A DNA stretch of 25,865 nucleotides from Arthrobacter crystallopoietes. GTDB taxonomy: Bacteria; Actinomycetota; Actinomycetes; Actinomycetales; Micrococcaceae. The first letter of the stretch is position 1. Each line of letters begins with the position of its first letter. This document shows, piece after piece, positions 1 through 25,865 of this stretch. A program made the translations under genes and the position numbers. Under the pieces are notes generated by a model that saw only the letters and a program-made list of their open reading frames with translations, was not told where the DNA came from and made no database searches. The stretch covers positions 1 to 25,865 of the forward strand of contig NZ_CP018864.1 in assembly GCF_002849715.1 (NCBI RefSeq), in the 5' to 3' direction.

Positions 1-2743
1 CGAGCCGACATCGAGGTGCCAAACCATGCCGTCGATATGGACTCTTGGGCAAGATCAGCCTGTTATCCCCGAGGTACCTTTTATCCGTTGAGCGACGGCC
101 ATTCCACAATGTGCCGCCGGATCACTAGTCCCGACTTTCGTCCCTGCTTGAGATGTCTCTCTCACAGTCAAGCTCCCTTGTGCACTTACACTCGCCACCT
201 GATTGCCAACCAGGCTGAGGGAACCTTTGGGCGCCTCCGTTACTCTTTAGGAGGCAACCGCCCCAGTTAAACTACCCATCAGGCACTGTCCCTGACCCGG
301 ATTACGGGCCGAAGTTAGATGTCCAGAGTGACCAGAGTGGTATTTCAACGATGACTCCACCCGAACTGGCGTCCGGGCTTCACAGTCTCCCACCTATCCT
401 ACACAAGCCACACCGAACACCAATACCAAACTATAGTAAAGGTCTCGGGGTCTTTCCGTCCTGCTGCGCGTAACGAGCATCTTTACTCGTAGTGCAATTT
501 CGCCGAGTTTATGGTTGAGACAGCGGGGAAGTCGTTACTCCATTCGTGCAGGTCGGAACTTACCCGACAAGGAATTTCGCTACCTTAGGATGGTTATAGT
601 TACCACCGCCGTTTACTGGGCTTAAATTCTCAGCTTCGCCCCCGAAGGGGCTAACCGGTCCTCTTAACCTTCCAGCACCGGGCAGGAGTCAGTCCGTATA
701 CATCGTCTTGCGACTTCGCACGGACCTGTGTTTTTAGTAAACAGTCGCTTCCCCCTGGTCTCTGCGGCCCACACCCGCTCCACAGAGCAAGTCTGTATCA
801 CGGGGCAGGCCCCCTTCTCCCGAAGTTACGGGGGCATTTTTGCCGAGTTCCTTAACCATAATTCTCTCGATCGCCTTGGTATTCTCTACCTGATCACCTG
901 TGTCGGTTTGGGGTACGGGCGGCTAAAACCTCGCGTCGATGCTTTTCTCGGCAGCATAGGATCACCAGATCCCCCCATACGGGGGTCCCGTCAGGTCTCA
1001 GGCTTAATGAACGGCGGATTTGCCTACCGTTCGCCCTACATCCTTGGACCGGGACTACCATCGCCCGGCCTGGCTACCTTCCTGCGTCACACCTGTTAAT
1101 ACGCTTACCTCCCGGTTCAGGTCCCGCGCGCCCCGCACATACTGGCCCCGAAGGGCACGGATGCACGGTTTGGACGGTTAGTATCACCGGCTCGGTATGG
1201 GCGGTTTTTCGCCGGTACGGGAATATCAACCCGTTGTCCATCGACTACGCCTGTCGGCCTCGCCTTAGGTCCCGACTTACCCAGGGCAGATTAGCTTGAC
1301 CCTGGAACCCTTGATCATTCGGCGGACGGGTTTCCCACCCGTCTTTCGCTACTCATGCCTGCATTCTCACTCGTGTAGGCTCCACCGCTGGTTTCCACCG
1401 CGGCTTCACTGCCCACACGACGCTCCCCTACCCATCCACGCCCCTGAACCAAGGGAACAAGTCCCCGGCTTGGGTAATACGTGAATGCCACAACTTCGGC
1501 GGTGTACTTGAGCCCCGCTACATTGTCGGCGCGGAATCACTTGACCAGTGAGCTATTACGCACTCTTTCAAGGATGGCTGCTTCTAAGCCAACCTCCTGG
1601 TTGTCTTCGCAACTCCACATCCTTTCCCACTTAGCACACGCTTAGGGGCCTTAGTTGGTGGTCTGGGCTGTTTCCCTCTCGACTATGAAGCTTATCCCCC
1701 ACAGTCTCACTGCTGCGCTCTCACTTGCCGGCATTCGGAGTTTGGCTGACGTCAGTAACCTTGTAGGGCCCATCGGCCATCCAGTAGCTCTACCTCCGGC
1801 AAGAAACACGCAACGCTGCACCTAAATGCATTTCGGGGAGAACCAGCTATCACGGAGTTTGATTGGCCTTTCACCCCTACCCACAGCTCATCCCCTCCAT
1901 TTTCAACTGAAGTGGGTTCGGTCCTCCACGCGCTCTTACACGCGCTTCAACCTGGCCATGGGTAGATCACTCCGCTTCGGGTCTAGATCACGCCACTGCA
2001 ACGCCCTGTTCAGACTCGCTTTCGCTACGGCTTCCCCACACGGGTTAACCTCGCGACGTAACACTAACTCGCAGGCTCATTCTTCAAAAGGCACGCCGTC
2101 ACAGCTGCTAGGGCTGCTCCGACGGATTGTAAGCACACGGTTTCAGGTACTGTTTCACTCCCTCCCGGGGTACTTTTCACCTTTCCCTCACGGTACTTGT
2201 CCGCTATCGGTCATCAGGTAGTATTTAGGCTTACCAGGTGGTCCTGGCAGATTCGCACGGGATTTCTCGGGCCCCGTGCTACTTGGGATACTCTCCAAGC
2301 GGCAGCACACATTACGGTTACAGGGCTAAACACCTTCTCCGGCCGGCCTTTCAAGACCGTTCACCTATGCATCTGCACTCACTTCAGCTGTCCGGCAGAA
2401 CAGCAACGGAAAGTCCCGCAACCCCGGCCATGCAACGCCCGCCGGCTATCACACATGACTCGGTTTAGCCTCATCCGCGTTCGCTCGCCACTACTAACGG
2501 AATCACTGTTGTTTTCTCTTCCTGCGGGTACTGAGATGTTTCACTTCCCCGCGTTCCCTCCACGTACCCTATGTGTTCAGATACGGGTCACCAGGTAAAC
2601 ACAGTGCCCCTGGCGGGGTTTCCCCATTCGGACATCCTGGGATCAAAGTTCGGTTATCAACTCCCCCAGGCTTTTCGCAGATTCCCACGTCCTTCTTCGG
2701 CTCCTGATGCCAAGGCATCCACCGTGTGCTCTTAAAAACTTGA
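1..2743 (-). rRNA. 23S ribosomal RNA, operon A (partial, 3' end missing)
   Basis: Large-subunit rRNA, catalytic core of the 50S subunit. The minus strand starts near 2743 with the actinobacterial 5' end and continues to domain V at the window edge, where the conserved peptidyl-transferase stretch (rc GTTATCCCCGAGG at 61-73) is visible. The last ~390 nt, including the sarcin-ricin loop, lie outside the window. The 3' boundary is therefore artificial. Copy-specific oddities are an extra A near 2328-2331, an AACACA/ACACAA rearrangement near 2596-2606, an extra T near 836-842 and a missing G near 618-621. All are absent from the other copies and look like base-calling errors rather than gene decay. 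Confidence 0.97.
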
Positions 2744-3202
2744 CCACAAAAGATCAAAATCAGCATTTAATATCGAGAGAACCACAGATCCAAAACAGAT
2801 CCAGGTTCATCAAAATTGCTTCTTTATAAGATGCTCGCGTCCACTATGTAGTTCAAACAACAACCCCGTCGCACCCATCCCCGCACCACGGATAAACCGT
2901 GGCCCGGATAAGGACTGCGCAGGAAACCAGAAACAAACAAACACCGGCCCATTCACGAACCGGTCCCTGTTGCCTCAGGACCCAACAGTGTGCCAAACAA
3001 CAACCCCCCGGACAACCCCCACACGTTCCAGGCACCCCCGCGAAGGGGACACCGTACTGGCATGGAAACCGCCAAAAGACCATCTATCCGTTGATATTCC
3101 ACCCTCGAGCACCCACCGCAGAACAAACGCCTGCGCAATGGGCTCTCCTGCAAACCGCACAACCAACACTTGGGAAGGCCCTGCGAGTCTGAGGCGCTCC
3201 TT
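2744..3202 (-). other. 16S-23S internal transcribed spacer, operon A
   Basis: Transcribed spacer of ~459 bp with no tRNA gene, as usual for actinobacterial rrn operons. It holds three recognisable elements. At 2835-2849 is a 15-nt arm that is complementary to the 23S-5S spacer (23S processing stalk). At 2886-2902 is a small hairpin (CCACGG-ATAAA-CCGTGG). At 2965-2996 is the arm that pairs with the 16S leader (16S processing stalk). No open frame here is credible. Confidence 0.9.
2850..2861 (-). promoter_or_regulatory. boxA-like antitermination element in ITS, operon A
   Basis: The minus strand reads GTTGTTTGAACT, a copy of the leader boxA core (GTTGTTTGAGAACT) lacking GA. Copies B, C and D have the full core, so the loss here is probably a sequencing error. 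NusB/S10-type antitermination machinery is the known reader of boxA; its action here is inferred. Confidence 0.6.
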
Positions 3203-4730
3203 AGAAAGGAGGTGATCCAGCCGCACCTTCCGGTACGGCTACCTTGTTACGACTTAGTCCCAATCGCCGGTCCCACCTTCGACGGCTCCCTCCCACAAGG
3301 GGTTAGGCCACCGGCTTCGGGTGTTTACCAACTTTCGTGACTTGACGGGCGGTGTGTACAAGGCCCGGGAACGTATTCACCGCAGCGTTGCTGATCTGCG
3401 ATTACTAGCGACTCCGACTTCATGAGGTCGAGTTGCAGACCTCAATCCGAACTGAGACCGGCTTTTTTGGGATTAGCTCCACCTCACAGTATCGCAACCC
3501 TTTGTACCGGCCATTGTAGCATGCGTGAAGCCCAAGACATAAGGGGCATGATGATTTGACGTCGTCCCCACCTTCCTCCGAGTTGACCCCGGCAGTCTCC
3601 TATGAGTCCCCGCCATAACGCGCTGGCAACATAGAACGAGGGTTGCGCTCGTTGCGGGACTTAACCCAACATCTCACGACACGAGCTGACGACAACCATG
3701 CACCACCTGTAAACCAGCCCCGAAGGGAAACCGCATTTCTGCGGCGGTCCGGTCCATGTCAAGCCTTGGTAAGGTTCTTCGCGTTGCATCGAATTAATCC
3801 GCATGCTCCGCCGCTTGTGCGGGCCCCCGTCAATTCCTTTGAGTTTTAGCCTTGCGGCCGTACTCCCCAGGCGGGGCACTTAATGCGTTAGCTACGGCGC
3901 GGAAAACGTGGAATGTCCCCCACACCTAGTGCCCAACGTTTACGGCATGGACTACCAGGGTATCTAATCCTGTTCGCTCCCCATGCTTTCGCTCCTCAGC
4001 GTCAGTTACAGCCCAGAGACCTGCCTTCGCCATCGGTGTTCCTCCTGATATCTGCGCATTTCACCGCTACACCAGGAATTCCAGTCTCCCCTACTGCACT
4101 CTAGTCTGCCCGTACCCACTGCAGACCCGGGGTTGAGCCCCGGGCTTTCACAGCAGACGCGACAAACCGCCTACGAGCTCTTTACGCCCAATAATTCCGG
4201 ACAACGCTTGCGCCCTACGTATTACCGCGGCTGCTGGCACGTAGTTAGCCGGCGCTTCTTCTGCAGGTACCGTCACTTTCGCTTCTTCCCTGCTGAAAGA
4301 GGTTTACAACCCGAAGGCCGTCATCCCTCACGGCGGCGTCGCTGCATCAGGCTTTCGCCCATTGTGCAATATTCCCCACTGCTGCCTCCCGTAGGAGTCT
4401 GGGCCGTGTCTCAGTCCCAGTGTGGCCGGTCACCCTCTCAGGCCGGCTACCCGTCGTCGCCTTGGTGAGCCATTACCTCACCAACAAGCTGATAGGCCGC
4501 GAGTCCATCCAAAACCAAAAAATCTTTCCACCCACCACCATGCGGTGACAGGTCGTATCCGGTATTAGACCCGGTTTCCCAGGCTTATCCCAGAGTCAAG
4601 GGCAGGTTACTCACGTGTTACTCACCCGTTCGCCACTAATCCCCGGTGCAAGCACCGGATCATCGTTCGACTTGCATGTGTTAAGCACGCCGCCAGCGTT
4701 CGTCCTGAGCCAGGATCAAACTCTCCGTTA
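3203..4730 (-). rRNA. 16S ribosomal RNA, operon A
   Basis: Small-subunit rRNA, about 1528 nt, complete. The 5' end on the minus strand lies at TAACGG-AGAGTTTGATCC near 4730, and the 3' end carries the anti-Shine-Dalgarno GGATCACCTCCTTT (complement at 3205-3218). The 530-loop region (4221-4240) and the decoding-site stretch GTACACACCGCCCGTC (3344-3359) are intact. The helix region near 4500-4560 and the V1 loop resemble Arthrobacter-type Micrococcaceae. Small insertions found only in this copy are an extra T at ~3323-3326, an extra T in the run at 3463-3468, and an extra G near 4331-4336. Confidence 0.98.
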
Positions 4731-25547: not shown

Positions 25548-25763
25548 CCTTGCCACCCCGGTTCCGGCCCCGCGGGCGGACGGAAGGGGTGAAACCTTCG
25601 GTTACATCAGTTCATTCTTGGACTGTATGCAATTGTGGTGTTCCCTGGGACGTTTGTTGTCCGGGAACCACATAGTGGACGCGATGCAAGTATCTTTTCC
25701 TTCCCCTGTGTATTGCCGTGGAACCGTTTGAAGTCGGTTCGACGGCCAGGGAAGTGTGTGGTG
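25548..25763 (-). other. 23S-5S spacer, operon E
   Basis: About 216 bp. Long hairpin at 25634-25672, 23S stalk arm at 25670-25684; its ITS partner lies outside the window. Confidence 0.83.
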
Positions 25764-25865
25764 TAAGTTATCGGCCTATTAGTACCGGTCAGCTTCACAG
25801 GTCTTTAGTCCCTGCTTCCACATCCGGCCTATCAACCCAGTGGTCTGGCTGGGGGCCTCCCACAC
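25764..25865 (-). rRNA. 23S ribosomal RNA, operon E (3' end only)
   Basis: Only the last ~102 nt of a 23S gene are present, the rest being cut off by the right edge. The stretch matches 12680-12781 of copy C without visible difference and includes the 3' GGTACTAATAGGCCGATAAC block. Confidence 0.95.

Follow-up and report, generated by a model that had tools for sequence, protein, structure and literature searches.

The window analysed here, 25,865 bp in all, is the whole of contig NZ_CP018864.1 (C2 below) from the three-contig genome of a species of Crystallibacter (the former Arthrobacter crystallopoietes group; assembly GCF_002849715.1, here G000), whose other contigs are the chromosome, C1 (4,762,081 bp), and C3 (244,759 bp). 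It consists of ribosomal RNA (rRNA) operons, and an Rfam search placed every match on the minus strand in a constant order: four 16S, three whole 23S, one edge-cut 23S and four 5S genes, with the 3' end of a second cut 23S at about 25758-25865; no transfer RNA genes were found in the window. A first-pass annotation made from the letters alone had described head-to-tail rRNA operons in the same order and on the same strand, and this holds, at 3.96 units. We consider it very likely, from sequence comparisons, that the contig is a redundant, low-accuracy long-read product drawn wholly from inside a real tandem rRNA array on the chromosome. Its features are as follows.

1 to 2745, minus strand: 23S rRNA, cut at the window start (Rfam RF02541, 2328.8 bits, model positions 1-2539 of 2925)
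3205 to 4731, minus strand: 16S rRNA (Rfam RF00177; 3 inserted or deleted (indel) bases against the chromosomal copy)
4732 to 5817, minus strand: 5S-to-16S intergenic spacer, the unit-unit junction (5 indel bases and 0 substitutions against the C1 spacer)
5818 to 5933, minus strand: 5S rRNA (Rfam RF00001)
6145 to 9276, minus strand: 23S rRNA (Rfam RF02541; 21 indel bases and 2 substitutions against C1)
9736 to 11257, minus strand: 16S rRNA (Rfam RF00177)
11258 to 12343, minus strand: 5S-to-16S intergenic spacer (1 indel base against C1)
12344 to 12460, minus strand: 5S rRNA (Rfam RF00001)
12674 to 15810, minus strand: 23S rRNA (Rfam RF02541; 6 indel bases against C1)
16270 to 17789, minus strand: 16S rRNA (Rfam RF00177)
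17790 to 18873, minus strand: 5S-to-16S intergenic spacer (13 indel bases and 1 substitution against C1)
18874 to 18989, minus strand: 5S rRNA (Rfam RF00001)
19203 to 22346, minus strand: 23S rRNA (Rfam RF02541; 35 indel bases and 1 substitution against C1)
22810 to 24333, minus strand: 16S rRNA (Rfam RF00177)
24334 to 25428, minus strand: 5S-to-16S intergenic spacer, the fourth complete junction, C1 having one fewer (20 indel bases and 4 substitutions against C1; full-length match at 24169-25545)
25429 to 25545, minus strand: 5S rRNA (Rfam RF00001)
25758 to 25865, minus strand: 3' end of a further 23S rRNA, cut at the window end (start approximate, deduced from the 213-base 23S-5S spacer on C1; the alignment starts at in-unit position 6224 of 6545)

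Measured against the 6,545-bp chromosomal unit, the contig runs end to end through 3.956 units, which leaves no space for another gene. The whole window stays inside the repeat and holds no unique flank, and a repeat structure across 25.9 kb at such identity excludes chance. The 6.53-kb period of the first-pass annotation is about right in length, the three full units (cut at the 5S) measuring 6526, 6530 and 6555 bp, but its steps are not uniform, because the copies, 98.2-99.0% alike, differ by scattered indels. Similarly, a 23S block said to recur at four positions is letter-identical over 200 bases at three of them, 1826, 8359 and 14892, the one at 21425 being different, and the intergenic spacer, put at about 0.6 kb, actually covers about 1.09 kb from 5S to 16S (1084-1095 bp in the window copies, 1087 bp on C1).

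The same arrangement stands on the chromosome. C1 carries four tandem units, with 16S genes at 2205591, 2212136, 2218681 and 2225226 (a step of 6545) and matching 23S and 5S genes; the repeat extends over 2205339-2230739, differs among units by two substitutions and one single-base indel, and ends in unique chromosomal sequence on both sides. Upstream lie an alpha-glucan phosphorylase, a protein that we take to be GlgE (NCBIfam gave only a treS match, far below cut-off) and TreS; downstream lie an AHSA1-like protein, a FAD-linked oxidase, a methyltransferase, a DUF4032 protein and an OtsA-like protein, the last just under cut-off. The label 'APH', considered for the DUF4032 protein, was unsupported by family search. 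For one protein of the flank the nearest named relatives are in strains VKM Ac-2550 (97%) and SF27 (96%), which are classified under Crystallibacter permensis and C. degradans; this is the basis for assigning the genome to Crystallibacter, with C. crystallopoietes as a tentative species name. One dispersed operon has its 16S at 3663172. With dnaA at C1:1548852, the origin assumed beside it and the terminus opposite, the array sits on one arm at 0.28 of the origin-to-terminus distance, as against 0.89 for the dispersed operon, and both would be transcribed with the replication fork. In the sister species (G002, the only other single-contig genome of the genus) the same flanking genes enclose five units, spaced 6548-6549 bp apart, at the same locus, and there is one dispersed operon besides. 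The tandem array sampled by the contig thus appears genuine, standing on C1 between unique flanks and at the same place in the sister's single-contig genome.

How, then, do the window copies come to differ? Against the C1 unit the contig has 84 deleted and 57 inserted bases (141 indel bases) and 9 substitutions, 0.58% in total, and a per-copy recount gave the same totals. The differences are unevenly spread along its reverse complement, the first 8 kb holding 85 of them and the stretch from 12 to 16 kb holding 3, and the indels fall inside the 16S and 23S genes too. Only three of the 145 distinct differences recur in more than one window copy, each of them in two copies and within a G run. The same C1 unit was also aligned with that of the sister species, a control that gave 124 substitutions and 21 gap openings. 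Since real divergence consists mostly of substitutions and the contig's differences mostly of indels, the copy-to-copy differences are sequencing errors, presumably long-read errors in a thinly covered contig, a platform and a coverage that we infer. Its sequence is already on C1, and the indel-dominated differences are not common to its copies: the contig is a redundant, unpolished assembly leftover. By itself it is of little interest; the locus makes it moderately interesting. The first-pass annotation had thought an artefact or misassembly at least as likely as biology, which proves apt for this indel-riddled leftover without unique flanks but not for the array it samples.

The leftover also bears on the number of units. 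It contains four complete 5S-spacer-16S junctions, one more than the three on C1. Three sites tell the chromosomal units apart: at two of them unit 1 has T and C where units 2-4 have C and T, and at the third an extra base is found in the last unit only; the T of unit 1 is also present in the dispersed operon. None of the four window copies carries a private allele of unit 1 or unit 4: at each of the three sites they all match the inner units. Provided that contiguous molecules underlie the contig, four junctions against three, together with the absence of the private alleles of the first and last units, point to a true array of probably no fewer than five units, and perhaps six if, in addition, the extra base of the last C1 unit is real. 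We posit that the assembler would have closed the chromosome with four units, and that the surplus reads would have ended up in the contig.

The alternative that fares best, unlikely as we hold it to be, is that the contig is purely a false concatemer made by the assembler, the chromosome having only the operons seen on C1 or fewer. The contig's redundancy with C1, its lack of a unique flank and its long-read-type errors are what such a product would present, and the spacer junction is not among the matches listed for eight draft genomes of the genus. However, the errors differ from one window copy to another, which means that the assembler did not simply duplicate a single consensus; moreover, the tandem arrangement is found on C1 with flanks and at the same locus in the sister, and the 5S-spacer-16S junction is present in both chromosomes.

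A second alternative, which we rate as very improbable, is an extrachromosomal rRNA circle of about four units, excised from the chromosomal array or existing beside it; a multimeric circle had also been proposed by the first-pass annotation. The contig is indeed separate and holds close to a whole number of units (3.96), and small plasmids with tandem rRNA operons exist in Persicobacteraceae, according to an excerpt of PMC10645730. Yet a circular element was rejected on end geometry: the alignment of the contig's reverse complement begins at in-unit position 6224 and stops at 5936 of 6545, such that the ends neither overlap nor meet and 288 bp are lacking for closure. The end-to-end alignment to C1 units leaves no room for a rep gene (no search aimed at rep families was run), and the contig is less accurate than the chromosome, the opposite of what we would expect of a higher-copy element. 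Finally, a second, diverged strain or contaminant with an array of its own, to which the difference of about 0.6% from C1 might point, is scarcely credible and was rejected on the ratio of substitutions to indels (9 of 150 differences being substitutions) and on the few differences common to copies, and, besides, the best 4 kb contains 3 differences and the allele sites agree with the inner C1 units.

We return to an apparently genuine chromosomal array as the source of the contig, and to the spacers, which carry its history. Its unit comprises 16S-23S-5S and a 1.09-kb spacer containing the leader of the next unit, and since each spacer carries the next unit's own leader, each unit should have a separate transcript. 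Among the three chromosomal spacers of G000 there are no substitutions, nor among the four of the sister, one of which has a 1-base indel; between the two species we counted 81 substitutions and 42-43 gap columns, with 70 of the 81 substitutions in the first 600 bp and 11 in the last 487 bp, which bear the leader. Copies are thus more alike within a genome than between species, and spacers free of substitutions within arrays yet differing by 81 between species point to concerted evolution. Recurrent exchange or gene conversion would hold the copies identical, and unequal exchange between sister copies would alter the unit number. The full-length resemblance of the spacer in the two species makes it probable that an array with such a spacer is older than their split; since then the copies would have been kept alike by exchange, or the array regained from one copy. 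In this light, the chromosomal amplification proposed by the first-pass annotation gains from the array on C1 with its unique flanks and from that of the sister, but its description as recent is doubtful, given a spacer common to the sister species and an array that probably predates the split. Eukaryotic ribosomal DNA (rDNA) arrays likewise consist of spacer-bearing units set head to tail, which are homogenised in any one species and differ from one species to the next; the present array resembles them in its head-to-tail, homogenised units, and differs in having few units and the bacterial operon order.

As to signals, a hairpin after the 5S and a leader before the 16S recur with every spacer, as the promoters and terminator of the first-pass annotation were said to do, but these names stay conjectural, as a consensus scan flagged neither. 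In alignment, TTGACA and TAAATT stand before unit 1, and TTGCGA replaces the first hexamer before the inner units, through which promoter strength may differ between the first and inner units. The sequence GATCCGCG or its complement occurs three times in each G000 and G002 spacer (window 4732-5817 and three other spacers) and is absent from the G104, G060 and G069 spacers checked.

The locus itself extends well beyond these two species. Within the genus, 16S was found in nine of ten genomes, G000 counted. For the wider family, a draw of 120 genomes was scored for three 16S candidates per genome, and 28 near-complete ones were then searched again: all 27 listed with at most three contigs besides G000, plus G027 (nine contigs), included because of a close 16S pair. 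In other genera the same kinds of flanking genes enclose three units in G104 (step 6737; no match to the FAD oxidase), two in G060 (step 6571) and one in G027. Of the 28 genomes, 20 have the downstream DUF4032 gene, with a 16S at most 25 kb away in 19 of these 20 and at most 10 kb away in 10. This proximity across family genomes points to an old rRNA site with a variable number of units, and the G000 array sits in this conserved locus, with treS and its neighbours on one side and the block of AHSA1-like, FAD-linked oxidase, DUF4032 and otsA genes on the other. Same-strand 16S neighbours within 10.3 kb occur in seven of the 28 genomes (G002, G027, G032, G054, G060, G069 and G104), and a spacing below 7 kb in four (G002, G060, G069 and G104); the tandem pairs of G069, G032, G054 and G027 enter these counts by spacing alone, not by placement at this locus. 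Two further members of the 28, G039 and G096, have single contigs (C1) that start inside an rRNA locus and, if circular, would join the seven by pairing their first and last operons at 9,164 and 10,235 bp.

Several points weigh against taking the contig as a sample of a homogenised array longer than that on C1. The four units of C1 could themselves be the assembler's choice, and both higher unit counts would drop if the contig had been stitched from separate reads. Assembly polishing can also make repeats look alike, which limits the weight of concerted evolution. The consensus scan, applied to one chromosomal spacer, gave no promoter on the transcribed strand, did not flag the hairpin after the 5S as a terminator, and returned a single terminator-like site, which lies in the leader; shuffled sequences gave more. 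The middle of the spacer has no long match among the matches listed for the eight drafts of the genus, among them G003 and G007, whose operon ends match at 97-100%; in these two the array could have been lost, or a short contig removed. Lastly, G009 has the two flanks on separate contigs, and within the stretch read no treS comes after the oxidase-side operon; a rearrangement at rRNA operons or a misassembly is possible.

Tandem rRNA operons are already known in bacteria, and the present array is of the same kind but longer than the examples cited here, all of which we take from excerpts of the papers. In open-licence PMC literature, searched by titles and the beginnings of abstracts, we found no description of a tandem rRNA array in Arthrobacter, Crystallibacter or their relatives. 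The excerpt on Bacillus subtilis (PMC8156514) gives one two-unit and one three-unit tandem group, and cautions that tandem operons may be misassembled and that recombination is likely to delete them; there too whole operons stand in tandem on the chromosome, whereas here a single run holds four (on C1) to probably five or more, with five in the sister, and in Micrococcaceae. The chromosome of 'Candidatus Symbiobacter mobilis' likewise has tandemly repeated rRNA operons, but only two (PMC4053972), and in Vibrio alginolyticus a tandem arrangement was inferred at three places (PMC10956519). The Persicobacteraceae plasmids carry two or three tandem rRNA operons, in genomes whose chromosomes have no rRNA operons (PMC10645730); like our contig they are small separate records, but they are plasmids, with rep genes where stated in the excerpt, whereas the contig holds no other gene and the array is on the chromosome.

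Other leftover records may tell the same story. In a plasmid collection, a query covering 24,000 of the window's 25,865 bases had matches somewhere in 555 records, as expected for rRNA; the best coverage, at 91.7% identity, was to the 'plasmid unnamed' of Pseudarthrobacter sulfonivorans Ar51 (NZ_CP013748.1), a 12,394-bp record deposited as circular, with rRNA and two annotated protein genes. Its bases 8149-12394 repeat 1-4246 at 99.9% identity, which gives an 8.15-kb unit. Like the contig, it is a small rRNA record outside the chromosome; unlike it, it was deposited as a circular plasmid and has two protein genes in its unit. The record could be part of a tandem array that was misfiled. Contig C7 of G027 (32,798 bp) holds three rRNA operons at 10.1-kb steps, and where it aligns longest with the two-operon locus of that genome (18.2 kb) there are 3 mismatches as against 106 gap openings, the same signature as in the window. 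In the family Micrococcaceae, redundant rRNA contigs of this type may betray the presence of tandem rRNA operons. On a side note, 20 kb of the 245-kb contig C3 matched no record of the plasmid collection over more than 9%.

Could this locus then be a dynamic bacterial counterpart of rDNA arrays? We offer this tentatively, as an idea more doubtful than probable: an array of six or more units, its length varying among cells and species and its copies held identical by ongoing exchange, would tune rRNA dosage at one conserved site, and closed assemblies would systematically undercount it, leaving surplus rRNA contigs as the sign. The number of rRNA operons is used as a trait of growth strategy and for correcting 16S counts. 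If arrays at this locus collapse in drafts and are undercounted even in near-complete genomes, operon numbers would be wrong for the family. With every unit number from one to five represented among related genomes, the locus would also provide a natural test bed for the gain, loss and homogenisation of rRNA operons.

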